From positions 1 through 20,284 of IMG/VR virus record IMGVR_UViG_3300031758_000717: 20,284 nt of DNA. The stretch is one strand, 5' to 3'. The notes below the pieces were generated by a model, which ran no database searches, was not told where the DNA came from, and saw only the letters and a list, made by a program, of their open reading frames with translations. Source of the DNA: a virus. Shown here piece by piece: positions 9,018-20,227 of this stretch (position 1 is its first letter; every line of letters starts with the position of its first letter). The position numbers and the translations under genes are program-made.

Positions 9018-9965
9018 TCAGGCCATCGTGGCCAGGCAGGCCCGCTGCCAGTAGCCGTAGCCGACACCGCGCCAGGCGTCGATGCCGAACTGCCAGGCGT
9101 CGTTGTCGAACTCGAACTCGCTGCCTTCCGCCTTGGCCTTGAGTTCGGCCTCGGTTTCGGTCTGGCGGATGAGCGCCTTGATCGGGCTGTCGGTGCGGAA
9201 GACCGCGATCTTGGTCGTCCACGTCAGCCGCGGATTCATGCCGACAGACACCTGGAACCCCATGTTGTTGGGGTTGAAGTTGTTGGGCAGCGCTGCGCTG
9301 GACATGGTCGACACCGCCGCCAGGGCTGCGGGGTACAGCGGCGCGGGCACCATGACAGTGAACTGGCTGGCGCCTTCGTTCATGGGCTCGCCACGGTCGT
9401 CCTTGAAGCCCAGGATGGCCGAGATGCAGCGCAGGATCACCTGCTGCATCGACTCCATCGACGGCGCCGCGGCCGTGCCGGCCGTGACCACCGGCAGCGT
9501 GCTGAGCGTGATGGCCAGGTCGTTGCTCTGGGTGCCGCTGTCGCCTTCGCTGTGGTCGGTGTCGAAGAAGAACTGGCCGTCATAGCAGGCGGTCGTTTCG
9601 CCGGCCAGGATCAGGTCGCTGAGCAGGCTGCCCCAGTGCGTGACGCCACGGTCGGCAAACTCGGCGACGCGCGCCTGGATCTGCGGCGTCTTGTCGCGGC
9701 GCGCGTCGCGCACGGCGATCTCGAGCGTCGCCTCGTAGTGCTTGTTGATGATCGTGACGCCCTGGCCGCTGAAGCCCTTGGCCTGGCGACCGCCGATCCA
9801 TTCCCGCATCGCCGGGCTCTGGCCCAGGAAGTTGTATGTTTCGCTCGCCTGGTCGGAGCTGAACAGGTTGGAGACGCCGGGCAGCCACAGGCCGCTGCGG
9901 TCGGCCTCCAGGCGTGCGAAGTACATGCCCATGATGGCGCGCGACGAGAGGAGAGACTGGTCCAT
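9018..9965 (-). CDS. Major capsid protein, Mu gpT-like
   Basis: The 315-aa product builds the icosahedral shell. It matches Mu gpT in several ordered blocks: YNFLGQSPAMREWIGGR at 44-60, the NKHYEATLEIAVRDARRD strand and hairpin, SLLSDLILAG, and the hallmark CYDGQFFFDTDH at 127-138. It ends with FGIDAWRGVGYGYWQRA, comparable to the gpT motif around AAGYGFWQ. Length is near that of gpT (305 aa). A good AAAGGA ribosome site precedes the ATG. Mu gpT adopts the HK97 fold. It is combined here with a lambda-type portal and terminase, a mosaic arrangement. No N-terminal delta domain is visible, consistent with a separate scaffold. Confidence 0.93.
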   Translation of the reverse strand: MDQSLLSSRAIMGMYFARLEADRSGLWLPGVSNLFSSDQASETYNFLGQSPAMREWIGGRQAKGFSGQGVTIINKHYEATLEIAVRDARRDKTPQIQARVAEFADRGVTHWGSLLSDLILAGETTACYDGQFFFDTDHSEGDSGTQSNDLAITLSTLPVVTAGTAAAPSMESMQQVILRCISAILGFKDDRGEPMNEGASQFTVMVPAPLYPAALAAVSTMSSAALPNNFNPNNMGFQVSVGMNPRLTWTTKIAVFRTDSPIKALIRQTETEAELKAKAEGSEFEFDNDAWQFGIDAWRGVGYGYWQRACLATMA

Positions 9966-10020: not shown

Positions 10021-10791
10021 TCAGGCCTCGCGCGCCCAGGTGCCGCGCATCGACGTCACGACGTAGCCGTCGGCGTCTCCCAGATCCAGTTGCACCAAGT
10101 CGCCGCGGCGGGCGGTGGCCTTGGTGTTGATCAGGTCCTTGTTGTCAGCGCCGGTGATGTCAGGGCCGAGGATCATGTCGGCCGCCGCAGGGCTGAGCGT
10201 CACGGCCACCGCGCCGAACGCGCCGCCGTTGACCACCACGCAGCCGCCCAGGCCGTCGGCAATCGCCGGCAGCGTAATGACGAAAGCGTCGGTGTCGACC
10301 CAGAAGAGCTTGCCGGTGTCCTGCGCGTCCAGCGTCTTGTTGGCGCTCAGCGTTTCGCGAACGGTCCACGCGTGGAACGGGTCGCGCTGGCCTGCGGCGT
10401 CGAAGTCCACAACCACCACACCCGCGGAGACGCAGCGCTTGACGAAACCCACGAACACGCCGCCGACCGGGCTGAAGCTGAACGTGTCGTCGTCACTCGC
10501 GTACACCGGCTGGCGGATGTCGGTGATCACGGCCCCGCTGACCGGCAGCTGGATCTCGCCCTTGCCGTAGACCTCGACGGTCCTGGCTGCGGCCGCTCCG
10601 GCCGAGTTGTCGGACGTGCGCTCGGCGAAGCCGATGAACAGGTCGCCGTTCTGCAGCGGCCGGGCGTGACCAGTGCTGACAACCACGCCGACAGCGGCGC
10701 CTTCATAGATGATGTCCGATGCGATCATCGGCACTTCGTTGCGGGAACCCAGTTCAAACTGGCGCGGCTTGTTGGCTGCGAGGGTGGGCAT
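10021..10791 (-). CDS. Capsid cement/decoration protein
   Basis: A 256-aa protein between protease and major capsid genes, the place of lambda gpD. Residues 1-131 form the cement domain, with GAAVG (31-35), GDLFIGFAE (49-57) and VYASDDDTF (96-104), which is also present in the fibre at 14308-15402. Residues 140-256 are a second beta domain (KLFWVDTDAFVITLPAIADG, VVVNGGAFGAVAVTLSPAA, ARRGDLVQLDLGDADGYVV) probably exposed on the capsid exterior. It has a good AAAGGA site before the ATG. Decoration proteins stabilise the expanded shell against DNA pressure; that role is inferred from position and domain pattern. It is longer than gpD (110 aa) because of the extra domain. Confidence 0.75.
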   Translation of the reverse strand: MPTLAANKPRQFELGSRNEVPMIASDIIYEGAAVGVVVSTGHARPLQNGDLFIGFAERTSDNSAGAAAARTVEVYGKGEIQLPVSGAVITDIRQPVYASDDDTFSFSPVGGVFVGFVKRCVSAGVVVVDFDAAGQRDPFHAWTVRETLSANKTLDAQDTGKLFWVDTDAFVITLPAIADGLGGCVVVNGGAFGAVAVTLSPAAADMILGPDITGADNKDLINTKATARRGDLVQLDLGDADGYVVTSMRGTWAREA

Positions 10792-10823: not shown

Positions 10824-11312
10824 TCAGGCGGCCTTGGACAGGCGCTTCACGCGGCCCGACTCTTCGGCGCGAGTGAAGGCGACGTATGAGGCGAGGTCGC
10901 CGAACTCCTGGCGCACGGCGGCGTCACGGTCCCAGCGCGACTTGCAGCGGTCCGCCAGCGGCAGGGCAGCCTCAGCCTGCGCATCGGCCTGCGCCAGCGC
11001 TGCAGCGTTGGGCACGACCGCGGGAGCCGCGGCACTGGCCACCGGGGCGGGCGCATCGGCGGCCAGGCTGCCGGCAGCCGTGGCGCGCAGCTGGCGCTCG
11101 GCATTCAGCACGGCCAGGGCGGCCTCGGGGCCGGTGGTCTTGCCATCGGCCTTGAGCTTGGCGATCAGGGCGTCATGGCCCGGCAGGGCCTGGCCCTCGA
11201 CGGCCAGCATGCGCTCACGCTCTGCAAGCGCGCCGGCGGCGTGGCCCTCGGCCAGGATGGCACGCAGCAGGTCGGGGCTTTGCGCCTGCAGTTCTTCACG
11301 GGTGATCGGCAT
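10824..11312 (-). CDS. Nested scaffold protein from internal in-frame start (Nu3-like)
   Basis: Within the protease frame, codon 303 is an ATG preceded by AAAGGAACAGTCGCC, a strong ribosome binding site at good spacing and of the same type as those before the decoration and capsid genes. It would give a separate 162-aa protein identical to the protease C-terminus: MPITREELQAQSPDLLRA, a coiled, Ala/Glu/Leu-rich body, an Ala/Pro linker and a basic end (RVKRLSKAA), the composition of a capsid scaffold. Lambda C/Nu3 and Mu I/Z use the same arrangement. The start signal is directly visible; expression and the scaffold role are inferred. Confidence 0.75.
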   Translation of the reverse strand: MPITREELQAQSPDLLRAILAEGHAAGALAERERMLAVEGQALPGHDALIAKLKADGKTTGPEAALAVLNAERQLRATAAGSLAADAPAPVASAAAPAVVPNAAALAQADAQAEAALPLADRCKSRWDRDAAVRQEFGDLASYVAFTRAEESGRVKRLSKAA

Positions 11313-12218
11313 GGCGACTGTTCCTTTGACTGATGTGGGGGTAGGTGCTGGCATGCGGGCCGAGCGCGCGGCACCGGCGCTGCTGCGGTCGCGGTTGAGC
11401 TGTTCGACCAGCTGCTCGAGCGTGGCAACACCGTCCACAAGCCCGGCTGCAATGGCCTGCTGCCCGATGAAGACACGGCCGTCGGCCATGTCGGAAAGAA
11501 CCTTGTCCGCGGTCGTGCCGAGGTGGCTCGCCACGTCCTGCACAAAGAGGCTGTAGGTGTAGTCGACGCGGTCCTGCAGCGTCGCGCGGTCTTCCTGGCT
11601 CAGCGGCGCGTATTCGTTGCCGACGGTCTTGAATCGGCCGGCGCTGATCAGCGTGGTCTTGACGCCGCGCGCCTGCTCGGCGGCCGACACGTCCATGTGC
11701 CGCGCCACGACGCCGATGCTGCCTACGATAGTGGTCGCGTCGCTGATGTAGCGGGCCTGCGCGGCCGAGCCGTACCAATACGCTGCAGAGGCCATGGTCC
11801 CGGTGGCCAGCGTGACGATGGGTTTTTGCTCACCGGCTTGGCGCACGAGCGAGGCCAGGGCCTGCGTGCCGTCGACGGTGCCGCCGGGGCTGTCGATCGC
11901 CAGGATGATGCTGTGCACGGCCTGGTCGTTGAGCGCGGCGCGCAGATCGCGGCCGATCAGCTCAGTGCTGACGCCGCCGGACACCTGCGACAGCAGGTTC
12001 ATCTTGCGCGCGGACACTCCCTCGATGGGCAGCACGGCCACGCCGTCGACGATGTCGTATCCCTTGGGCTCGTTGGCCAGCGGCCGGCCCAGGCGCTGCT
12101 CAATGGCCGCGATGTCGATTTTTTCGCCGCGCAAGTGCGTGGCGTAGATCGACTGCAGCTCCAGCAGCTTGTCGGGCTGGATGGCCCAGGGCGCGGTGAT
12201 GATGTCGAGGAGCTTCAT
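10824..12218 (-). CDS. Head maturation protease, S49 (SppA/gpC-like) family, with C-terminal scaffold region
   Basis: The 464-aa protein cleaves scaffold and portal during capsid maturation. The S49 core spans about 55-270: AIDSPGG at 108-113, the nucleophile Ser144 in TMASAAYWYG, GSIGV at 166-170, and the general-base Lys197 in AGRFKTVGNEYAPLS, the Ser/Lys dyad of single-domain phage forms. Residues about 300-464 are an Ala/Glu-rich helical scaffold-like tail, as in lambda gpC/Nu3. I chose ATG 12218; the longer frame from a TTG at 12251 begins next to the dyad element and adds nothing family-like. No clear Shine-Dalgarno sequence precedes the ATG. It is the first gene after dyad copy A, so this site may drive the capsid block. 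Confidence 0.9.
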   Translation of the reverse strand: MKLLDIITAPWAIQPDKLLELQSIYATHLRGEKIDIAAIEQRLGRPLANEPKGYDIVDGVAVLPIEGVSARKMNLLSQVSGGVSTELIGRDLRAALNDQAVHSIILAIDSPGGTVDGTQALASLVRQAGEQKPIVTLATGTMASAAYWYGSAAQARYISDATTIVGSIGVVARHMDVSAAEQARGVKTTLISAGRFKTVGNEYAPLSQEDRATLQDRVDYTYSLFVQDVASHLGTTADKVLSDMADGRVFIGQQAIAAGLVDGVATLEQLVEQLNRDRSSAGAARSARMPAPTPTSVKGTVAMPITREELQAQSPDLLRAILAEGHAAGALAERERMLAVEGQALPGHDALIAKLKADGKTTGPEAALAVLNAERQLRATAAGSLAADAPAPVASAAAPAVVPNAAALAQADAQAEAALPLADRCKSRWDRDAAVRQEFGDLASYVAFTRAEESGRVKRLSKAA

Positions 12219-12251
12219 GGCGGCAGCGTGTGCGCCAAGAATGCCGCGCAA

Positions 12252-12282
12252 GCTGTGCCACGATCAGGGGGGGAGTGGCACA
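12252..12282. promoter_or_regulatory. Dyad element, copy A (putative operator/promoter)
   Basis: Identical over 31 bases to 17361-17391, with arms TGTGCCAC and GTGGCACA at 12254-12282. It lies in the 107-base gap (12219-12325) between the 661-aa gene and the head protease, 35 bases before the protease ATG. Flanking bases differ from copy B, apart from a nearby GCGC motif on the downstream side in both. Conservation of the spacer as well as the arms argues for sequence-specific recognition, or for a recent duplication. Nothing else recognisable is in this gap. Confidence 0.6.
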
Positions 12283-12325
12283 ACGCGCCCCGACTGGTCG
12301 CGCTTGAGCATGCCGTCCCGTCTGT

Positions 12326-14311
12326 TCAAGACTCGATCAGGATCACCGCCCAGACCGAAAGCGTGGGCAGCGTCAGCAACAGCCCGGTCGGCCCTGCAGC
12401 GGCCGACAGTTCCTGCGGCGCCAGGCCCGGCTCGAACCATCGCACGCGACTGACCTCGCGGCTAGGCAGCGCCCACTGCTGCACCCGCAGCGTGAGGCCC
12501 GCGCGGGTCACCCCGTCCATGTTGACGATGTGCAGCACAGTCGCGCCAGGCTTGGTGCGCGGGATCACGAACACGTCGGTAAAGGTGCCGGTCAGTTTTG
12601 CGACCGACCACTGCGCCCAGCTGCTCACCGGCTGCTGCGCGAGGGTGCGGTAGTTCGGCAGCGTGGACAGCGCGCCCGTTACCGCGCTCGGGGTGGAGCA
12701 GTCGATCACCCGGATCGCCTGGGCCTCCAGGTCGGTGCGCCGCGGATAACCCCCATTTAGCGGGTACATGATCGCCGGCACCGCGTTGCGCAGGCACATC
12801 TCGGCCCAGCCCAGGATCCCGTTCGAAGTGACTGCGCGGTTGTCGTTGGTCTCGACGTCGCAGAGCAGCGCCAGGGCCCCGTTGTCGACGGTGCCGTCGA
12901 AGAGGAACGTGTAGGTCGCCACGAACGTGTTCATCGTGAGGAACCCGTCGCCAGGCTCGGCAAACCAGCGCTCTTGCTGGCCCGCAGCCGTTGGCTCGCA
13001 GTAAGTGTCGCAGGGGTACAGAGGCCTGCCGCCTAGCGCCCAGCAGAGCGCGTACTGTTGCAGGAGGACGGTGACTTGCTGCGGCCTGGTGCTTGAGTAG
13101 GTCTCGTCGTTGCGCATCGGCTGCAAGTGCGGCGCCCAGTCGGCGCCACCGCCCGTCACGGTCTTGCCGTTGCACCACAGCAGCGTGTAGCGCTGCGCGT
13201 AATCCAGGGGTGTGCCCTCCGCGACCCGGGTGGTCCACGCGTCAGCGTCGGTCTCATGCATGCCGACGCTGAACGCGCGCACCAGGTAGCCGTTGTAGTC
13301 GCGCCGAAAGAGCGGGTTGTAGACGTTGCCACTGATGTAGCGAATCGCGGACGGGTATGCGTCCCGCAGTGCCTCGTGGAAGGCGACGCCACCAGCCCTC
13401 AAGTGGGCCATGAAGGAGTTCCACGAGGCCTCGGTGTTGTAGTTGGTCGACCAGTTGCTGGTGGTCGTGGCCCAATCCTTGATGGCCCAGTTCCACACGT
13501 CCTGCGTGATGCTGGCGGGCGGGCCCTGCATCACGGAGACGTAGTTCGGGTTGAAGCCGGCCAGTGTCTCGCTGTCGAAGGGGCCGCCGGTGCGAGACGT
13601 ATCGCGCGCCCGTAGCGCCGAGAGATCGGGCACCGGGTCATCGAAGTGCGCAGCCGTGCCCGAGGTCAGCGCTGCGGCTTCGGCGCGCTTGAGCGCCAAA
13701 TACCCTGCGCGACGGCTGGCCCCGAACGCTCGCTCGCTCGGCATGAGCCACGCCACCGGCACCGGCTGGCCATCCCACGACGTCGCCGCAGCGGTCGGGG
13801 ACGCGACCCGATCGACCAGCCCGTTGATGGTCTCCTGCACCGAGATGCCGGCCGCCAGAAACGCGTTGCCCATCGCGGGCGCACCGCCCGGGTAGTACCA
13901 CACCAGGTCGGTGGCGCTGGCGGCCTGGGCGTAGCTGAGCGGGTCGATGCGAAACGCTGTGGCCGTGGCCGGCACCGTCTCGCCGCCGCCCGAAAACGAG
14001 ACCGTCACCGCACCGGTGGAACCCTGCCCGTGTTGCAGCACAGCGATCGACCGCACGCCGTTTCCTCGCATACGCGCAACCGCCTGCACCCCTGACAGGC
14101 CCGGCCCTGTGACCGTGACCGTCGGCACCCCCGAGTACGTGCCGGGCGTGTCGACCCGGATCCAGGTGACCTGTCCGATGTCCCGCGGCTGCAGGAACCG
14201 GATCAGCCGGGCCGACAACGGCAACTTCAGCGGCTGCGGAACCGCCGGCTGTCCAGCCAGCGTCAGCGCAGCAGCAACAGGCGCTGGAGTCCTGACGGGC
14301 AGGATGCTCAC
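12326..14311 (-). CDS. Large unidentified virion-associated protein, possibly a glycoside hydrolase
   Basis: I cannot name a family for this 661-aa protein. Residues about 57-107 carry a phage-fibre repeat unit (TYSGVPTVTVTGPG ... VTVSFSGGG). The long middle (about 125-575) is rich in Trp/Tyr with Asp/Glu-containing strand ends (DVWNWAIKDW, LLCDVETND, IMYPLNGGYP), resembling a barrel-type carbohydrate-active enzyme. Residues about 575-660 look like the beta-sandwich that closes many glycosidases (VLHIVNMDG ... LTLRVQQW ... VWAVILIE). The start is GTG in a GTGA overlap with the preceding fibre gene and has no good Shine-Dalgarno site, so it depends on coupling. There is no signal peptide. It ends just before dyad copy A. 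Catalytic residues cannot be assigned; a glycan-binding spike without catalysis is the alternative. Confidence 0.45.
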   Translation of the reverse strand: MSILPVRTPAPVAAALTLAGQPAVPQPLKLPLSARLIRFLQPRDIGQVTWIRVDTPGTYSGVPTVTVTGPGLSGVQAVARMRGNGVRSIAVLQHGQGSTGAVTVSFSGGGETVPATATAFRIDPLSYAQAASATDLVWYYPGGAPAMGNAFLAAGISVQETINGLVDRVASPTAAATSWDGQPVPVAWLMPSERAFGASRRAGYLALKRAEAAALTSGTAAHFDDPVPDLSALRARDTSRTGGPFDSETLAGFNPNYVSVMQGPPASITQDVWNWAIKDWATTTSNWSTNYNTEASWNSFMAHLRAGGVAFHEALRDAYPSAIRYISGNVYNPLFRRDYNGYLVRAFSVGMHETDADAWTTRVAEGTPLDYAQRYTLLWCNGKTVTGGGADWAPHLQPMRNDETYSSTRPQQVTVLLQQYALCWALGGRPLYPCDTYCEPTAAGQQERWFAEPGDGFLTMNTFVATYTFLFDGTVDNGALALLCDVETNDNRAVTSNGILGWAEMCLRNAVPAIMYPLNGGYPRRTDLEAQAIRVIDCSTPSAVTGALSTLPNYRTLAQQPVSSWAQWSVAKLTGTFTDVFVIPRTKPGATVLHIVNMDGVTRAGLTLRVQQWALPSREVSRVRWFEPGLAPQELSAAAGPTGLLLTLPTLSVWAVILIES

Positions 14312-15402
14312 GGCAGCAGGGTCAGGCGCTGGTAAGTGAGAAGAGGCGCGTCAACGACCGTTGCCGGCGTGGGGACGCCAGTCATGGTGGTGCTGAGCCC
14401 GATGAACCAAGGGGTCGTGCTGATGTTGATGATCGTCGCAGTGACATCAGGGTTGGCGGACGTCGTCGAAAGGCCGTTCCACGAAGGGGCTGCGCTGTTT
14501 GCGCCGAGTCCGCGGGTCGTGGTGTTGGACTGAACCCGGATCCACTTCTCGAAGCCACAGCCGCCATCTACCGTTGCCGTGATGGTGCTCGACAGATTTG
14601 CCTGCAGGATCGCCGAATCTCCGATGACACCACCGGCGCCGAGGCGGATGCTGGTGCCACCTGTGCCGTAGGTGTCGGTCACCCCGTTCTTGGCAAGTCC
14701 GAAGTGGTAAACGAGGATGTCGCCAGCCTGGATGAATCCGGCCGGGTATGGACCCAGGCCGCCGAGATACTGGTCGGCCTGTTGCGCGACGCCGGTCAGA
14801 ATGTTTCCGTTCTCACCGATCAGCGTCGGAAAAAGCACCTTCCAGCGGGTGCCGTTCCACTGAAGATGAACCCCGTTCGGACCAATGTCGGTGACGAAAA
14901 TCGGCTGGTACAGATACGGGCTTGTCGGCCTGGTGGCCCACGTCACCGTGGACGTGATCTGCAACTGAGTCGCAAGCACCTCCGCCGCTGACAGGCGCTT
15001 CAAGCCACCGGAGAAGGCAACGACAGCCTGGCCTGCGGCTGGAACCCGAACGATTTCGCCGACGAGGGTGCTTCCGGTCAGCGCAAACGTGTCGTCGTCG
15101 CTGGCGAAGACACTGTCGCCGACGTTGATGGCGTTCACCGTGGCCACCGGCAGCTGCGCCTGACCGTGGGTCAGCAGCGCCACCGATGTGGGCGTGGCTC
15201 CGGTGACGTCGCGGGTGCTGGTCGCCCCGGCCTCTGCAAATCCGGCGAACAGATCGCCGGCCACCACGGGGCGCGCGCGACCGGTGCTGGCGTCGATGCC
15301 AACCGCCGCGCCCTGAAAGACGGTCGTCCCGGAGGCCAGCTGCAGGCTGTTGCGGTGGCGGACGTCGGTGTAGCTGCGGGACTTGTTGCTGGTGAGAGGC
15401 AT
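14308..15402 (-). CDS. Capsid-cement-domain protein fused to a fibre-like C-terminal domain (putative head fibre)
   Basis: The 364-aa product is two modules. Residues 1-133 are a paralogue of the capsid cement protein at 10021-10791; shared blocks are GAAVG, STGxARP, GDLFxGFAE, QLPV and VxASDDDTF in the same order. Residues 134-364 are unrelated to that paralogue: a linker with WATRPTSPYLYQPIFVTDIG and LQWNGTRWKV (a phage fibre/spike-type beta unit) and then a Gly/Thr/Ser-rich beta domain (SIRLGAGGVIGDSA, VQSNTTTRGLG). The ATG at 15402 has a strong AGGAG site; a longer upstream frame is antisense-like and rejected. The stop overlaps the next start as GTGA. Inferred role: a decoration protein that anchors to the shell and displays an outer domain. 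The unit lies unusually between portal and protease. Confidence 0.7.
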   Translation of the reverse strand: MPLTSNKSRSYTDVRHRNSLQLASGTTVFQGAAVGIDASTGRARPVVAGDLFAGFAEAGATSTRDVTGATPTSVALLTHGQAQLPVATVNAINVGDSVFASDDDTFALTGSTLVGEIVRVPAAGQAVVAFSGGLKRLSAAEVLATQLQITSTVTWATRPTSPYLYQPIFVTDIGPNGVHLQWNGTRWKVLFPTLIGENGNILTGVAQQADQYLGGLGPYPAGFIQAGDILVYHFGLAKNGVTDTYGTGGTSIRLGAGGVIGDSAILQANLSSTITATVDGGCGFEKWIRVQSNTTTRGLGANSAAPSWNGLSTTSANPDVTATIINISTTPWFIGLSTTMTGVPTPATVVDAPLLTYQRLTLLP

Positions 15403-15428
15403 GCTCTGCGCTCCTGTGTGATGGTTGA

Positions 15429-17087
15429 TCAGCGCCCGGATAGCGCGCGACGCAAACCAGCAGGCGGCGGTGCGGTTTGCTCGTCGTCGTCGACCGGCGG
15501 CTGCGATGGCAGCGTGGGCGCTTGTGCAGCGCCGGGCACGCTGAAACCGGCCTCCTTTCGCGCTGTGGCCTCCTTGACCTGCTGCCGGTGCTTGGTTTCC
15601 CAGTCGACTCCGTCGTGCAGCAGGCTTTCTGCCTCGAGCGTGCTGGTGCCAAGGGCGACACGGTCGCGGGCGGCCCCGACTTCCTTGGCCGGGTCGATGC
15701 TGCCGGGCCCGTCCCCGACCCACTGCGACTGGCACCAGGCCGCGCGCACGACGGGGTCGGCAAAGAACCCTGGAGCACTGATGCGGCCTTCGGCCACCTC
15801 GTCGGCCAGCCACAGCTCATAGACCGGCTGGCAGAGCGCCCCGGCGATCCAGCTGCGCCAGCCCATGAAGCTGCGCCAGGCCATCAGCAGCGCACCGCGC
15901 GCAGCGCTGTAGCTGGACTGGAAGTGCATCACCAGCACTTCGTAAGGCATGCCGACGGCCATGCCGATCTGCCGCATGCAGCTGGTCGTAAAGGCGTCGA
16001 ACTCGGCATTGGGCCGGCCCGGGTTGTGGCTGACGGGTTCCTCGCCGGGAAGAAGGTTGATGACCTTGCCGGCCTCGATCTCGCCCGACCAGCTGCTGGA
16101 TTTGTCGACGATCTTGGCGCGGGAGTCCTCGTCGAAAAGGTCCTGGAACGCTTCGGGGTCCATGCGCAGGAAAACAGCCATCAGCGCAGACGTCACCGCC
16201 GCCGAGAGCTCGGCCTCGGAATAGCGCGTGAGCTGCTTGATGGGCTCGATCACGGGCGCCAGCAAGGGCACGCCGCGGCGCAGCCCAGGGCGCAGCTGGC
16301 GGTACAGGTGCAGCACGTTGCGGCGGCCAGTGCTGCTGCCACGCGCGGCGATGGTGGTCCAAGTGCGGGAACCCCGCGCCAGCGTATCGTTCGGGTAATG
16401 GCTGCAGACGTGGTAGGCAATGGCCTCGCCGGTGGCAGCGCTGCATTCGACCCCGTCGGTCATGGTGTCCGTGTTGGCGCGCAGGCCCGGGTTGCACAGG
16501 CGGTCGGCCTCGACCAATTGAAGCGCCAGCCGAGTGCGGCCGTCGCGGGCCACGCGGGGCGTGATGACGAGCAGGTCGCCACGACTGAGCACGCCGCGCA
16601 GGGCCACGTCCTGGATGGCATAGAAGTCCAGGTTGCGCGCCAGGTCGCAGTCGGTCGATTCAGCCCAGGCGCGCCAGCGGCGCTTGGCGTCCTTCTGCCA
16701 GGCCTGGGCGTCCTCTTCGCTCAGCCCCAAAAACTCGGCGTCGATCTGCGGATTGCAGGCCAGGCCGGTGCCGACGACGTTGGCACAGTGGCTGTTGACG
16801 ACGCTGGCTGCCACGGGCGCATTGCGCTCAAGGTCTGCGCAGCGGTCGCGCAGCGTGGGCAGGTCGGCAATGACGTCCGATTCAGGTGACCCGCCTGACG
16901 TGCGCCAGCTCGACAGCGAGGCCTTGTCCTTGCGTGCGCCCTGGTATCCACCCAGCACCGCGAGCTGCTGACGCGCGACCAGCCGGCGGGCGGCAGCGCG
17001 GGGCGCGACGTAGCCGATCGCGCGGTCAAGCAGTGTTGCGGCAGCGGCCGGGATGTTGCGGCGCTTGGGGTCGGAAGGCTCGCGCAT
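15429..17087 (-). CDS. Portal protein, lambda gpB family
   Basis: The 552-aa product forms the dodecameric ring at one capsid vertex through which DNA enters and to which the connector attaches. Characteristic gpB-type segments are visible: an N-terminal SLSSWRTSGGSPESD region followed by LRDRCADLERNAPVAASVVNSHCANVVGTGL, a RGVLSRGDLLVITPR strand, HLYRQLRPGLRRGVPLLAPVIE (the tunnel-loop/wing region), and the conserved QSSYSAARGALLMAWRSF helix. The last 45 residues are Pro/Asp-rich and probably flexible. Length is close to lambda gpB (533 aa). The start lacks a good Shine-Dalgarno sequence, so translation probably depends on coupling to the gene just upstream. It is intact. Confidence 0.95.
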   Translation of the reverse strand: MREPSDPKRRNIPAAAATLLDRAIGYVAPRAAARRLVARQQLAVLGGYQGARKDKASLSSWRTSGGSPESDVIADLPTLRDRCADLERNAPVAASVVNSHCANVVGTGLACNPQIDAEFLGLSEEDAQAWQKDAKRRWRAWAESTDCDLARNLDFYAIQDVALRGVLSRGDLLVITPRVARDGRTRLALQLVEADRLCNPGLRANTDTMTDGVECSAATGEAIAYHVCSHYPNDTLARGSRTWTTIAARGSSTGRRNVLHLYRQLRPGLRRGVPLLAPVIEPIKQLTRYSEAELSAAVTSALMAVFLRMDPEAFQDLFDEDSRAKIVDKSSSWSGEIEAGKVINLLPGEEPVSHNPGRPNAEFDAFTTSCMRQIGMAVGMPYEVLVMHFQSSYSAARGALLMAWRSFMGWRSWIAGALCQPVYELWLADEVAEGRISAPGFFADPVVRAAWCQSQWVGDGPGSIDPAKEVGAARDRVALGTSTLEAESLLHDGVDWETKHRQQVKEATARKEAGFSVPGAAQAPTLPSQPPVDDDEQTAPPPAGLRRALSGR

Positions 17088-17092
17088 GTCGG

Positions 17093-17320
17093 TCAGCGCG
17101 CCGGGACAACGGTGCGGCCACGGCTCCGGCCTTGCGTGCGGTTGCTGAGCTGCACCACGCGGGAATTCCAGCTTTCCAGGCCGGCGCGGATCTCGGCCAG
17201 GTCCGCCCTGGTCACACTGCGCCCGCCGATGCTGTATGCCTGGCCCGAAAGCACGGCAGATTCGGCGGCAAGGTAGGCCGCCAGCTGCGCTTCAGCTTGC
17301 TGCAGGGTGATCCCGGCCAT
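17093..17320 (-). CDS. Head-tail joining protein, gpW-like / DUF6148
   Basis: A 75-aa protein in the place of lambda gpW, between terminase and portal. gpW plugs the portal after packaging and begins the head-tail connector. The sequence has a helical start (TLQQAEAQLAAYLAAESAV), a short beta turn with QAYSIGGRSVTRADLAEIR, then a second helix (AGLESWNSRVV) and a basic tail; this helix-hairpin-helix layout and the SIGGR-xxxRADL core are characteristic of the DUF6148/gpW-like group. The ATG has a clear GGAG ribosome binding site (TTGGAGAGTCACGA). It is the first gene after dyad copy B. Its stop is 5 bases upstream of the portal start. Function is inferred from size, position and fold pattern. 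Confidence 0.75.
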   Translation of the reverse strand: MAGITLQQAEAQLAAYLAAESAVLSGQAYSIGGRSVTRADLAEIRAGLESWNSRVVQLSNRTQGRSRGRTVVPAR

Positions 17321-17360
17321 TCGTGACTCTCCAATGCGTGCGGGTCAGTTTGCGCAGAAC

Positions 17361-17391
17361 GCTGTGCCACGATCAGGGGGGGAGTGGCACA
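17361..17391. promoter_or_regulatory. Dyad element, copy B (putative operator/promoter)
   Basis: A 31-base element identical to 12252-12282. It contains perfect inverted arms TGTGCCAC and GTGGCACA (17363-17391) around a 13-base spacer with a run of seven G (C on the transcribed-sense strand). Arm centres are 21 bp apart, two helical turns, as expected for a dimeric protein. It sits in the 84-base gap between the Mor-like gene and the gpW-like gene, ending 42 bases before the latter's ATG. No obvious sigma-70 -35/-10 pair follows it, which would suit an activator-dependent promoter. A transcribed RNA hairpin is the alternative. Confidence 0.6.
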
Positions 17392-17404
17392 GCCGGCAGG
17401 CCGG

Positions 17405-17683
17405 TCAGGGCTTGCTGATCAGTCGGTACAGAGTGCGACGGCTGATGCCATGGCGCTGGGCGACGGTGCCGACGTTGGGCTGTCGGTCGAGGTCTCGCCG
17501 GATGGCGACCGGGTCTGGCCGGTCGGCTGCGCAGGTCTTGGCGATGTACGGGATGGTCTGGCCGCCCCACTCCCGCCGCGCCTCGCGCTCGACGGTGAGC
17601 GCCAGCTCCTGCGTGATGCTCTCTTCGTGCGCGATCATTCTGTCGATCACCCAGCGGATGATGTCGTTGCTCCCGGCTTTCAT
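17405..17683 (-). CDS. Mor-family transcription activator-like protein
   Basis: A 92-aa basic DNA-binding protein. Residues 40-47 (GGQTIPYI) match the GGxxVYIP strand of Mu Mor and C. Residues 58-90 follow the Mor C-terminal pattern: a helix (VAIRRDLDRQPN), then a helix-turn-helix (VGTVAQRHGISRRTLYRLI), aligning with Mor ELTTRYGVTFNTVYKAI. It is shorter than Mor (129 aa), lacking much of the N-terminal dimerisation arm. It starts in an ATGA overlap with the large terminase stop. Mor and C activate middle and late promoters of Mu by binding dyad sites. Immediately downstream (17363-17391) lies a perfect dyad repeated upstream of the protease gene, an obvious candidate target. The family call is made by eye on motif order; activator function is inferred, and a packaging accessory role is the alternative. 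Confidence 0.7.
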   Translation of the reverse strand: MKAGSNDIIRWVIDRMIAHEESITQELALTVEREARREWGGQTIPYIAKTCAADRPDPVAIRRDLDRQPNVGTVAQRHGISRRTLYRLISKP

Positions 17684-19722
17684 CGGTTGCGGGCTCCGGG
17701 TCGGCTGGAGAAGCGGGCGCTGCTGCTCAGGGAGACGCGACCGTCGCTGGATACCGGGGACGCTCGCGGGGCAGCCGCGGTTATGGCCGGCACATCGCCG
17801 GTGCCCTGAACCGATGCCGCGAACAGGTCACTCGTCGCAGGCTGCACAGCCTCCTCAAGCCGATCCCACTCCCGTGCGGTGCGGCTATGCAGTCCAAGAG
17901 CCTCAGCACAGAACATGGCGTACACCGTGCAGTCCAGCGGCTCGTTGCGGCGACCGGGCGGGTTGACCCAACGGTAATCAAGACCTCGCGCGGTTCGAAC
18001 GGGCACGCGGCTTTCCGCTGTCAACCCGGTGTAGAACGCCGCAGGCAGTTCCTGGCTGAAGTGAACGTACCCCGGGCCTGGCTTGGCCACCGCCAGTCGC
18101 CCGTGCAGCGTGTCCTTGGCCGTGTCGGTGCCAACGAACCAAAGGCGGACGCCGCGCTTGAGTACTCGGCCGCGCCAGTTGACATCGACAACGCTTGCCT
18201 TGCCTTTGATCGGCCGGCCGGATTGGCTCTCGCCCCGGATCGCAAACACTCGGCGGCGCTCGCGCGTGCGGCAGTAGTTGTACGCCTGGTGTGTGAAGTG
18301 GCCCATCGTGTCGACGGCGGCCGCTTCGATCTTGAGCAGCTGGCCGCTCGCGTGCTGGAATGGCGTCGCCAGATAAGGGTCGAGCTTCTCGGCCCACTCG
18401 GCCTCTTCGGCCGGGTTGCCGTAGATCACGCTGTAGTCGACGGCCCACATTTCCTCGCCGCGGCCGATCGCCCAGGTCACGCACTCCCAACGGTCGTCCT
18501 GCGTGTCAATTCCGCTGACCAGCACCAAGCCGCCCATCGGGACGCTGAATCGCTTGTAGGGCTCCGCGCGGCGCTGAAGCGCGTGCTCGTCGGCCTTCTC
18601 GAACTTCTCTTCCCAAAGCTCGCCCAGCGTCTCGTTGACAAAGGTCATCAGCGGGCCGCTTTGCCCTTCTTTGGCTTTGCGACTTGCTTCGAGGAACTCG
18701 CGCACGATGTCCTGCCAGTCGCGCTGCGGGCTGTACGCGGTCCAGACGTGGAAGGCCACATGCCGCGGCGGCAGACGCGGCTGGGCGGCGTCATCGCGCC
18801 ACACGCTGTCCTGCCCGTACCGGTAACCCCCGCACCGACTCACCCAGGCCCCAGCACCGTAGGCCGCGAGGTACTGGCTCTGGGTCATCGGCTCGAGGCA
18901 GTGGGGGCAGACATGCCGCACCGGCGACGCATCGCCGCCAAGCCCGCCACCCTTGAAGCCGTGGCGGAGGTCCTTGCCACCCCACTCCAGAGGGTGCTCG
19001 GCCTGGCAGTGCGGGCAGGCAACGTGATACCGCAGCACCGCCTCGGCGTTGGCCTCCCGGGTCTCAATGTGGTCCAGACCTTTGATGCGCGGGGTGCTTA
19101 CAGCGATCAGCTTCGGGAACGCTGCGCCTTCCAATCGCCCGCGCGCGCCCTCGATCGGGTCGATCGACTTCTCGACAACAGTGTCGAACGCACTGGCCTC
19201 GTCCAGCATGGCCACGGACACGGTGATGCGCCGGTACGCCCGCGCTGCCTTGCCGCCCAGGGTGTGCAACACGCTTCCCATGAACTGCTTGAGCTTCAGG
19301 GTGTCGTCCTTGCCCTTCAGCAGCACCGGCGCCATCGCCGGCACGTCTCGCAGCATGGGGTCGACCTCAGCCTTGACGAAGCTGTCCCGGTCGTCGTCCG
19401 TTGGCTGCCAGAGAGCCTGCTTGCGCCGGCGGTGCGCAGCGTTGTAGGCGATGAACGCCAGGAGGGTCTTGGTGTAGCCGACGCGCTTGGACTTGCGCAC
19501 GGTCACCTCGGCAATGGCGTCATTGCTGAAGGCGTCCATCCAGCCGCGCTGGAAAGGGTAGGCGTCCCACTGGCCCTGGCTGTGGCTGCTTTCTGCCGAA
19601 AGCCGGAAGTGCTTGGCGGCCCACTCGCTGAGTGACATCGGAGGCTCGGCACGAAGCGGCGCCAGGCCGGACACAACGGCCTGATGCACCGCTCGCTGCG
19701 TTTCAGTCGGCGCGCGGCTCAT
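17680..19722 (-). CDS. Terminase large subunit, GpA family (ATPase/nuclease)
   Basis: This is the packaging motor and endonuclease that cuts concatemeric DNA and pumps it through the portal. The 680-aa protein has the full GpA architecture: a Walker A-like loop at 77-86 (KSKRVGYTKT), a Walker B DEAS at 174-177, two CPHC pairs (236-239 and 272-275) likely binding a metal, and nuclease-domain motifs GIDTQDD (404-410), DTMGHFT (471-477) and NEPLDC near 593-598. I chose the ATG at 19722, since its MSRAPTETQRAV start fits the family; an ATG at 19791 gives 23 extra unrelated residues inside the small terminase gene. The stop overlaps the next start as ATGA. The Ser/Arg-rich last 40 residues look disordered. 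All key motifs seem intact. Confidence 0.95.
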   Translation of the reverse strand: MSRAPTETQRAVHQAVVSGLAPLRAEPPMSLSEWAAKHFRLSAESSHSQGQWDAYPFQRGWMDAFSNDAIAEVTVRKSKRVGYTKTLLAFIAYNAAHRRRKQALWQPTDDDRDSFVKAEVDPMLRDVPAMAPVLLKGKDDTLKLKQFMGSVLHTLGGKAARAYRRITVSVAMLDEASAFDTVVEKSIDPIEGARGRLEGAAFPKLIAVSTPRIKGLDHIETREANAEAVLRYHVACPHCQAEHPLEWGGKDLRHGFKGGGLGGDASPVRHVCPHCLEPMTQSQYLAAYGAGAWVSRCGGYRYGQDSVWRDDAAQPRLPPRHVAFHVWTAYSPQRDWQDIVREFLEASRKAKEGQSGPLMTFVNETLGELWEEKFEKADEHALQRRAEPYKRFSVPMGGLVLVSGIDTQDDRWECVTWAIGRGEEMWAVDYSVIYGNPAEEAEWAEKLDPYLATPFQHASGQLLKIEAAAVDTMGHFTHQAYNYCRTRERRRVFAIRGESQSGRPIKGKASVVDVNWRGRVLKRGVRLWFVGTDTAKDTLHGRLAVAKPGPGYVHFSQELPAAFYTGLTAESRVPVRTARGLDYRWVNPPGRRNEPLDCTVYAMFCAEALGLHSRTAREWDRLEEAVQPATSDLFAASVQGTGDVPAITAAAPRASPVSSDGRVSLSSSARFSSRPGARNR

Positions 19723-20227
19723 CTTCGAAATCCGGCGCGGCGTCATCGTCGACCACGGATAGGGACTCGCGGACCAGCTCAGCAGTCGCACGCGCCCACT
19801 CGTTTCGTGCGGCAGCGATGACGGCCATCACCTGGTCGACCGCGGGCTGCGGTAGGTCGGGCATGGTCTTGCGCAGCAGACCGGGCAAATGCTCGAATCG
19901 GTCGGCGACGGACTGGCTGGCGCTCGCGAGCACTTCGGCCAGCAGGGTCACGGCGGCGTACTCGCCACGCAGTACCTGATTCTTGATCTCGTTGCCCTCG
20001 CGCTGGCTGCGGGCCAGTGCAGCACGCTCCTGCGCCAGGTCGAGCGGCCCTTCGCTGAAACGCCCGGCAGCTTGCTCCCTCAGTCGGCCGCAGTAGGCCA
20101 GCAACCACTCGGCCGCCGTGCCGCCTTCGGCCAAAACTCCAGCACGCACCAGCTCGCTGACGGCCTGTTGACTGATGCCAACGGCCTCACCGAACAATGC
20201 CTGACTGACGGGCACCTGAGGGGTCAC
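19703..20227 (-). CDS. Terminase small subunit, Nu1-like DNA packaging protein
   Basis: The 174-aa product is the DNA-recognition subunit of the packaging motor: it binds the viral concatemer near the packaging site and recruits the large subunit. Residues about 5-50 form a winged helix-turn-helix of Nu1 type (VSQALFGEAVGISQQAVSEL). A helical charged middle (RSQREGNEIKNQVLRGEY) and a helical C-terminus with an acidic tail follow, matching the usual size and layout of the Nu1 family. The start is GTG, preceded by a G-rich Shine-Dalgarno sequence about 7 bases upstream, and it overlaps the stop of the upstream frame. The 3' end overlaps the large terminase start by 20 bases, so the two are translationally linked. 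Family assignment is confident; the specific binding site is not visible. Confidence 0.85.
   Translation of the reverse strand: MTPQVPVSQALFGEAVGISQQAVSELVRAGVLAEGGTAAEWLLAYCGRLREQAAGRFSEGPLDLAQERAALARSQREGNEIKNQVLRGEYAAVTLLAEVLASASQSVADRFEHLPGLLRKTMPDLPQPAVDQVMAVIAAARNEWARATAELVRESLSVVDDDAAPDFEDEPRAD

Follow-up and report, generated by a model that had tools for sequence, protein, structure and literature searches.

What purpose could the same 31 bases serve when they occur, as a perfect dyad, at two distant places inside one late gene cluster? The window analyzed here is the whole of a linear virus record of 20,284 bp. It carries this perfect repeat at 12252-12282 and 17361-17391, as the earlier note had observed. 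The dyad arms (TGTGCCAC/GTGGCACA) lie 21 bp apart, start to start, and those of the copy at the higher coordinates extend to 10 bp (17361-17393). The longest direct repeat in 60 window-sized Markov-1 sequences was 18 nt at most, against the 31 nt observed, which places the repeat far beyond chance. A search of the window allowing up to 3 mismatches returned no third copy, again in agreement with the note (shuffled sequences gave a mean of 0.27 matches), and none was found in contigs of relatives of about 37 to 42 kb. The reading that we develop below, and consider very probable, is that a single small Mor/C-like activator, encoded by the phage, acts on both copies as its late promoters, and that they head the portal and the capsid blocks of the operon.

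The late genes of the window are all on the minus strand, and in order of transcription they are TerS, TerL, a 92-aa regulator, the first element, a gpW-like gene, portal, two accessory genes of 367 and 661 codons, the second element, an S49 protease, a decoration-like gene and a Mu gpT-like capsid gene (Table 1). The gaps that hold the elements measure 84 nt (between the Mor-like and gpW genes) and 107 nt (between the 661-aa ORF and the protease gene). They are the largest between TerS and the major capsid gene, the next being 55 nt. The note had placed the copy at 12252 beside the Mor-like gene; this is wrong, as the adjoining copy is that at 17361-17391, the first in transcription order. 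Both copies do lie shortly upstream of the gpW and protease ATG codons, but the distances are 40 bases (gpW, ATG 17320) and 33 bases (protease, ATG 12218) instead of the 35-42 given before. The protease start is likely ATG 12218, since the alternative TTG, at 12251, would lie ahead of the point where transcription is predicted to begin. Each promoter block contains one of two decoration-like paralogues (both phrog_1731), and the one in the portal block has an extra C-terminal domain. The 661-aa protein had no Pfam or NCBIfam match, and a weak tail-fibre PHROG was its sole match. The same phage, at an identity of at least 99.9%, is represented by two IMG/VR contigs and by a single contig in the bin of a Rubrivivax MAG. 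In L222, a MAG contig (JAJTGU010000016.1, 99.9% identical to window positions 13875-18283), the stop codon of the Mor-like gene reads Trp and the ORF continues through the element, either as a variant or as an assembly error.

Table 1. Coordinates of genes, repeated elements and predicted promoter features in the window
Feature	Position	Strand	Remarks
Terminase large subunit	17680..19791	-	PF20454/PF05876; upstream of regulator and both elements
Mor/C-like regulator, 92 aa, C-terminal helix-turn-helix	17408..17683	-	Putative specificity residues S81 and R83 in HGI-S-R-R-TLYR
Element copy 1, dyad of candidate promoter P_gpW	17361..17393	-	Half-sites GTGCCA 17390-17385 and TGGCAC 17369-17364, separated by a C-run core
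Core T, first base of P_gpW -35 position	17375	-	Constant 23-nt distance from the -10 among relatives
Predicted -10 box CAAACT, P_gpW	17347..17352	-	TANNNT offset rule; predicted start near 17340
gpW-like head-tail joining protein (DUF6148)	17093..17320	-	PF19645 E 6e-11, phrog_118; first gene past P_gpW
Portal protein	15429..17087	-	PF05136 E 1e-93
367-aa accessory protein, decoration-protein-like N-terminus	14308..15411	-	phrog_1731 E 2e-11; portal/protease interval
661-aa accessory protein	12326..14311	-	Weak tail-fibre PHROG E 5e-4; portal/protease interval
Element copy 2, dyad of candidate promoter P_prot	12252..12282	-	Half-sites GTGCCA 12281-12276 and TGGCAC 12260-12255
Predicted -10 box CATTCT, P_prot	12238..12243	-	Same offset rule; predicted start near 12231
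Head maturation protease (S49)	10824..12218	-	PF01343 E 1e-33; first gene past P_prot
Decoration-like structural protein	10021..10791	-	phrog_1731 E 3e-19; downstream of P_prot
Major capsid protein (Mu gpT-like)	9018..9965	-	PF10124 E 2e-34; downstream of P_prot

Comparison with 80 portal-based loci of relatives revealed that the places of the element are conserved and its arms are not. Near relatives do not carry the exact element of the window and instead have a repeated dyad of their own at the same two places. A search for any imperfect dyad that is repeated downstream of the Mor-like gene, in which no arm sequence was assumed and the core motif raised the score without being required, recovered 38 related phages with differing arms. 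Each of them carries two concordant copies with phage-specific arms, the first upstream of gpW (38/38) and the second upstream of the protease gene (37/38). In almost every relative the Mor-like gene is flanked by TerL and gpW. In seven loci (L028, L029, L030, L032, L034, L035 and L198) this gene is at its usual place and the dyad is absent; here a -10-like hexamer (TAGAAT, TACAAT, AAAATC) follows the Mor-like stop codon almost directly, and any site would therefore sit inside the 3' end of the gene. In another group (L162, L164, L172, L210, L213 and L214) the right half-site of the gpW copy is degenerate, reading GTTGCA or GTTGAA and not GTCTCA, despite a perfect protease copy, and the two promoters of these phages may differ in strength.

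The distance between copies in the 38 phages ranges from 1.9 to 7.9 kb depending on insertions after the portal gene, and identical copies flanking a variable segment that gains accessory genes could suggest a recombination linker, or the footprint of a mobile element, at module borders. We regard this explanation as very unlikely, given that the copies persist without insertion at the 1.9 kb spacing, that their arms track residues in the helix of the regulator, and that their register to a -10 box is fixed (both described below). Homologous repeats may nonetheless aid exchange secondarily.

The geometry of the copies indicates that they are promoters. We aligned 75 copies by the T in their conserved CCCT or CCTT core and scanned offsets from 5 to 69. 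A TANNNT -10 box occurred at exactly +23 in 47 of the 75 copies and in at most 4 at any other offset; A at -11 was present in 62/75 and T at -7 in 66/75. The +23 offset makes the core T the first base of the -35 position and leaves a spacer of 17 bp, and this fixed register argues for a promoter of the sigma70 type at each copy of the element. One half-site then occupies about -50 to -45 and the other about -29 to -24, with arms 18-21 bp apart that straddle -35. The -35 position was unlike TTGACA in the copies read, as is expected of an activator-dependent promoter. Note that the -10 boxes of the window itself (CAAACT, CATTCT) are weak, which counts against our explanation. Predicted leaders are about 20 nt for gpW and about 13 nt for the protease transcript.

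Since the element folds as an 8-10 bp hairpin (z about -3) with arm pairing that covaries across phages, it could act instead as an RNA structure in the late transcript, in antitermination, processing or translational control. This alternative has very little probability in our estimate. A hairpin cannot explain the fixed 23-nt register to the -10 box or the residue-base code, and the pairing arm of copy 1 has been lost in L162, L164, L172, L181, L210, L213 and L214, which retain the left arm, the core and the -10. Moreover, the predicted start is downstream of the hairpin, which would consequently be absent from the transcript of that very promoter. Three other candidates were rejected. A terminator lacks a U-tract 3' of the hairpin in the sequences read. 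The right-arm TGGCAC recalls the -24 box of a sigma54 promoter, but the relatives do not conserve this arm sequence, and the -10 is of sigma70 type at a fixed register. Loops of the CCTCCCTTA kind resemble the 16S tail, as an anti-Shine-Dalgarno mimic would, in a few phages, but the C-run of the window does not.

If the copies are late promoters, a candidate for the protein that reads them is encoded directly upstream of the first. Its assignment to the Mor family in the earlier note holds: a profile of 26 homologues searched against the PDB best matches Mu Mor (1rr7), collinearly over 72 aa and with an E of 5e-4. The Pfam Mor model (PF08765) scores the window protein alone at E 0.02 (15.3 bits, below the cutoff of 24.9) and 8 of the 26 homologues at E up to 0.05, the best at 6.2e-7. 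Late transcriptional activator PHROGs are matched by up to 12 of the 26. In terms of sequence, membership in the Mor/C family (PF08765) therefore appears remote but consistent. The Mor/C fold has a dimerisation part at the N-terminus, a GG with a strand, and an HTH at the C-terminus. The AlphaFold monomer of the 92-aa protein (pLDDT 89) aligns with Mu C (9l0x) over 89 residues with a Z of 5.8, a value in the range of the common HTH fold, and an rmsd of 3.6; Mu C has the best Z score among matches spanning the whole protein. The top Foldseek match is Mor (1rr7), but with an E of 0.35, and the structural scores alone are modest. The recognition helix of the model comprises residues 82-90, and residues 81 and 83 are therefore at its N-terminus. 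The N-terminus of an HTH recognition helix is a usual place of base-contacting residues.

A tblastn search of the Mor-like protein against 50,697 sequenced phage records returned no match, and the group therefore has little or no annotated representation in those records. A distant blastn search against sequenced phages gave patchy matches only. The Mor-like profile matched 2 + 2 of 399 + 369 bacterial genomes, with limited scoring depth, indicating few prophages.

The two variable positions of the helix covary with the bases of the half-sites. A half-site was assigned in 62 phages, 61 of them usable. Arg at the second position (S-R-X-T-L-Y-R) accompanies G at half-site position 3 in 11/11 phages, against 2/50 otherwise (Fisher 1.9e-10), and His at the first position accompanies GTCGC in 6/6, against 0/55 (p 1.8e-8). 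On a tree built with both variable positions masked, the Arg/GTG association represents 7-9 phylogenetically independent switches and the His association 4-5, none contrary in either case. The pattern had already been noticed when 24 of the 62 half-sites, as well as four corrected automated ones, were read by eye; we therefore repeated the test on automated arm calls only, which gave p values of 6e-5 (Arg) and 0.005 (His). We also scanned 2.9 million viral contigs from the DNA side, with arms, core and -10 and no protein reference. New GTGCCA promoters were accompanied by Arg in 4/4 cases, and new GTCTCA promoters by Ala or Ser in 31/31 and by Arg in 0/31; at the level of sequence, the Arg rule is confirmed on new phages. 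The GTCGC scan returned one new true case (L236), in which the helix reads SRGH and the first position is not His, and the His rule is consequently not confirmed out of sample.

Several phages depart from these rules. L204 (SRST) has GTGCCA and is counted against the code. L017 and L119 are exceptions of another kind, with an 'Ala' helix and everted GTGAGAC arms (TGAGAC...GTCTCA, not GTCTCA...TGAGAC) in both copies, at an unchanged -10 register. L236 and L293 belong to the same contig (IMGVR_UViG_3300021417_000007) and represent one phage, with copies armed GTCGC and GTCTC and a helix SRGHFY. Finally, L229 (G744) combines the helix AKTTLYR with a GTTCCA-type dyad and is possibly a fourth specificity.

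Covariation and register together suggest that the 92-aa protein binds the dyad, and the comparative evidence points to recognition by the Mor-like protein at sigma70 promoters with a -10 and without a -35. Binding by this protein is predicted; a host regulator might in principle occupy the same late promoters. We consider this the least probable of the explanations, in view of the residue-base covariation across 62 phages and in the DNA-first scans, and of the near absence of the element from relatives without a Mor-like gene. Relatives that keep the element and lack the gene had been named as the finding that would refute a role of the protein. Using one strict pattern, which overlooks degenerate copies, the element was found in 12/29 loci having the Mor-like gene and in only 2/49 portal relatives without a detected one in the locus (Fisher 6e-5). 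Both of these are explained by the end of the locus or contig: the contig of L033 does contain a Mor-like gene, at a more distant position, and the contig of L008 begins inside the portal gene. A recheck of 20 element-bearing contigs in which no nearby gene had been seen turned up a Mor-like gene in 8. The others are mostly short fragments, with the exceptions of G788 (66 kb) and G799 (31 kb); neither of these element-bearing contigs yielded a Mor-like match, which counts against our explanation.

These observations are compatible with the following scheme for the two late promoters. The 92-aa protein would be expressed at the end of the operon that serves packaging (terminase), its first supply presumably coming from an upstream promoter. 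Host RNA polymerase would contact a weak -10 located 17 bp downstream of a non-TTGACA core at the place of the -35, and initiation would be enabled when the 92-aa protein occupies both half-sites as a symmetric assembly. P_gpW would then start the gpW-portal block, with any accessory genes past portal, and P_prot would restart transcription at the protease, decoration and capsid genes, where many more protein copies are probably needed.

The sign of regulation is drawn from Mu, and most likely the Mor-like protein activates both promoters. The main competing explanation, which we hold to be improbable though less so than those above, is that the dyad is an operator through which the Mor-like protein represses both promoters, or acts as a dual regulator, so that portal and capsid are expressed only late. 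Both the -35 position and the 5' part of the spacer are covered by the site, a usual location for a repressor, and some relatives have fair -10 boxes (e.g., TAGAGT, TACACT). In contrast, the -10 boxes of the window are weak and the -35 position fits activator dependence, and Mu Mor and C, the nearest relatives of solved structure, act as activators (PMC4390567, PMC4461284).

With activation of two promoters by one protein, what was a repeat without a name would become a predicted late regulon of two promoters, allowing the prediction of expression in phages represented by metagenomes only. A transcription factor that has changed repeatedly in concert with its two target sites also constitutes a compact natural experiment on the evolution of protein-DNA specificity. 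For example, the window (Arg, GTGCCA) and a 64% identical relative, L006 (Ala, GTCTCA), offer a natural contrast of one residue with one or two bases.

How does this system compare with those already described? In phages P2 and P4, one phage activator (Ogr or Delta) serves several dyad-containing late promoters that divide the morphogenesis genes, a likeness to the present case. Ogr, however, carries a zinc finger, and its sites are near -55. The 92-aa protein, in contrast, has a single Cys and a C-terminal HTH without an Ogr-type cysteine zinc-finger motif, and no site lies near -55.

The resemblance to Mu is closer. The Mor dimer of Mu binds a dyad that has a G/C-rich spacer and replaces the missing -35 contact (PMC4390567), and our protein shares with Mor a collinear profile match that includes the GG-x-V-Y-I stretch and the HTH. 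However, the Mu site consists of 5-bp repeats in 16 bp centered at -43.5, at one promoter of middle genes, whereas the sites described here span about 27-29 bp and are centered near -37. Arms 18-21 bp apart straddle the -35, unlike those of the Mor site, so the Mu mechanism may not carry over unchanged. The 16-bp/-43.5 geometry is a feature of Mu Mor and not of the whole family, and this limits our claim to a variant. Mu C, also a small phage-encoded HTH protein of the Mor/C family, drives four late promoters with a dyad and a nonconsensus -35 (Plys, PI, PP and Pmom), one of which heads gene I of head synthesis (PMC4461284). The earlier proposal of a Mor-like cognate binder and two block-heading promoters is thus upheld by comparative evidence, but its claim that such an arrangement was not known from Mu is mistaken: the principle, in which a single phage activator serves several internal late promoters, is already known there. 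In contrast to Mu C, the present system has its two promoters within an operon for packaging and portal genes of the lambda/gpW type, arms that embrace a C-rich core, and a regulator encoded between terminase and gpW with marginal similarity to the Mu proteins. What is new is the site geometry, this genomic setting, the specificity code and the phage group; our literature search, of partial coverage, recovered the Mu work and no description of the group. Whether we face a widespread undescribed family of late promoters in uncultivated lambda/gpW-type phages is, in our judgment, evenly balanced. Such a family would combine a Mor-like activator, half-sites two helical turns apart around the -35 in an architecture unlike that of Mu, and a two-position recognition-helix code whose repeated switches were accompanied by changes in both promoters.
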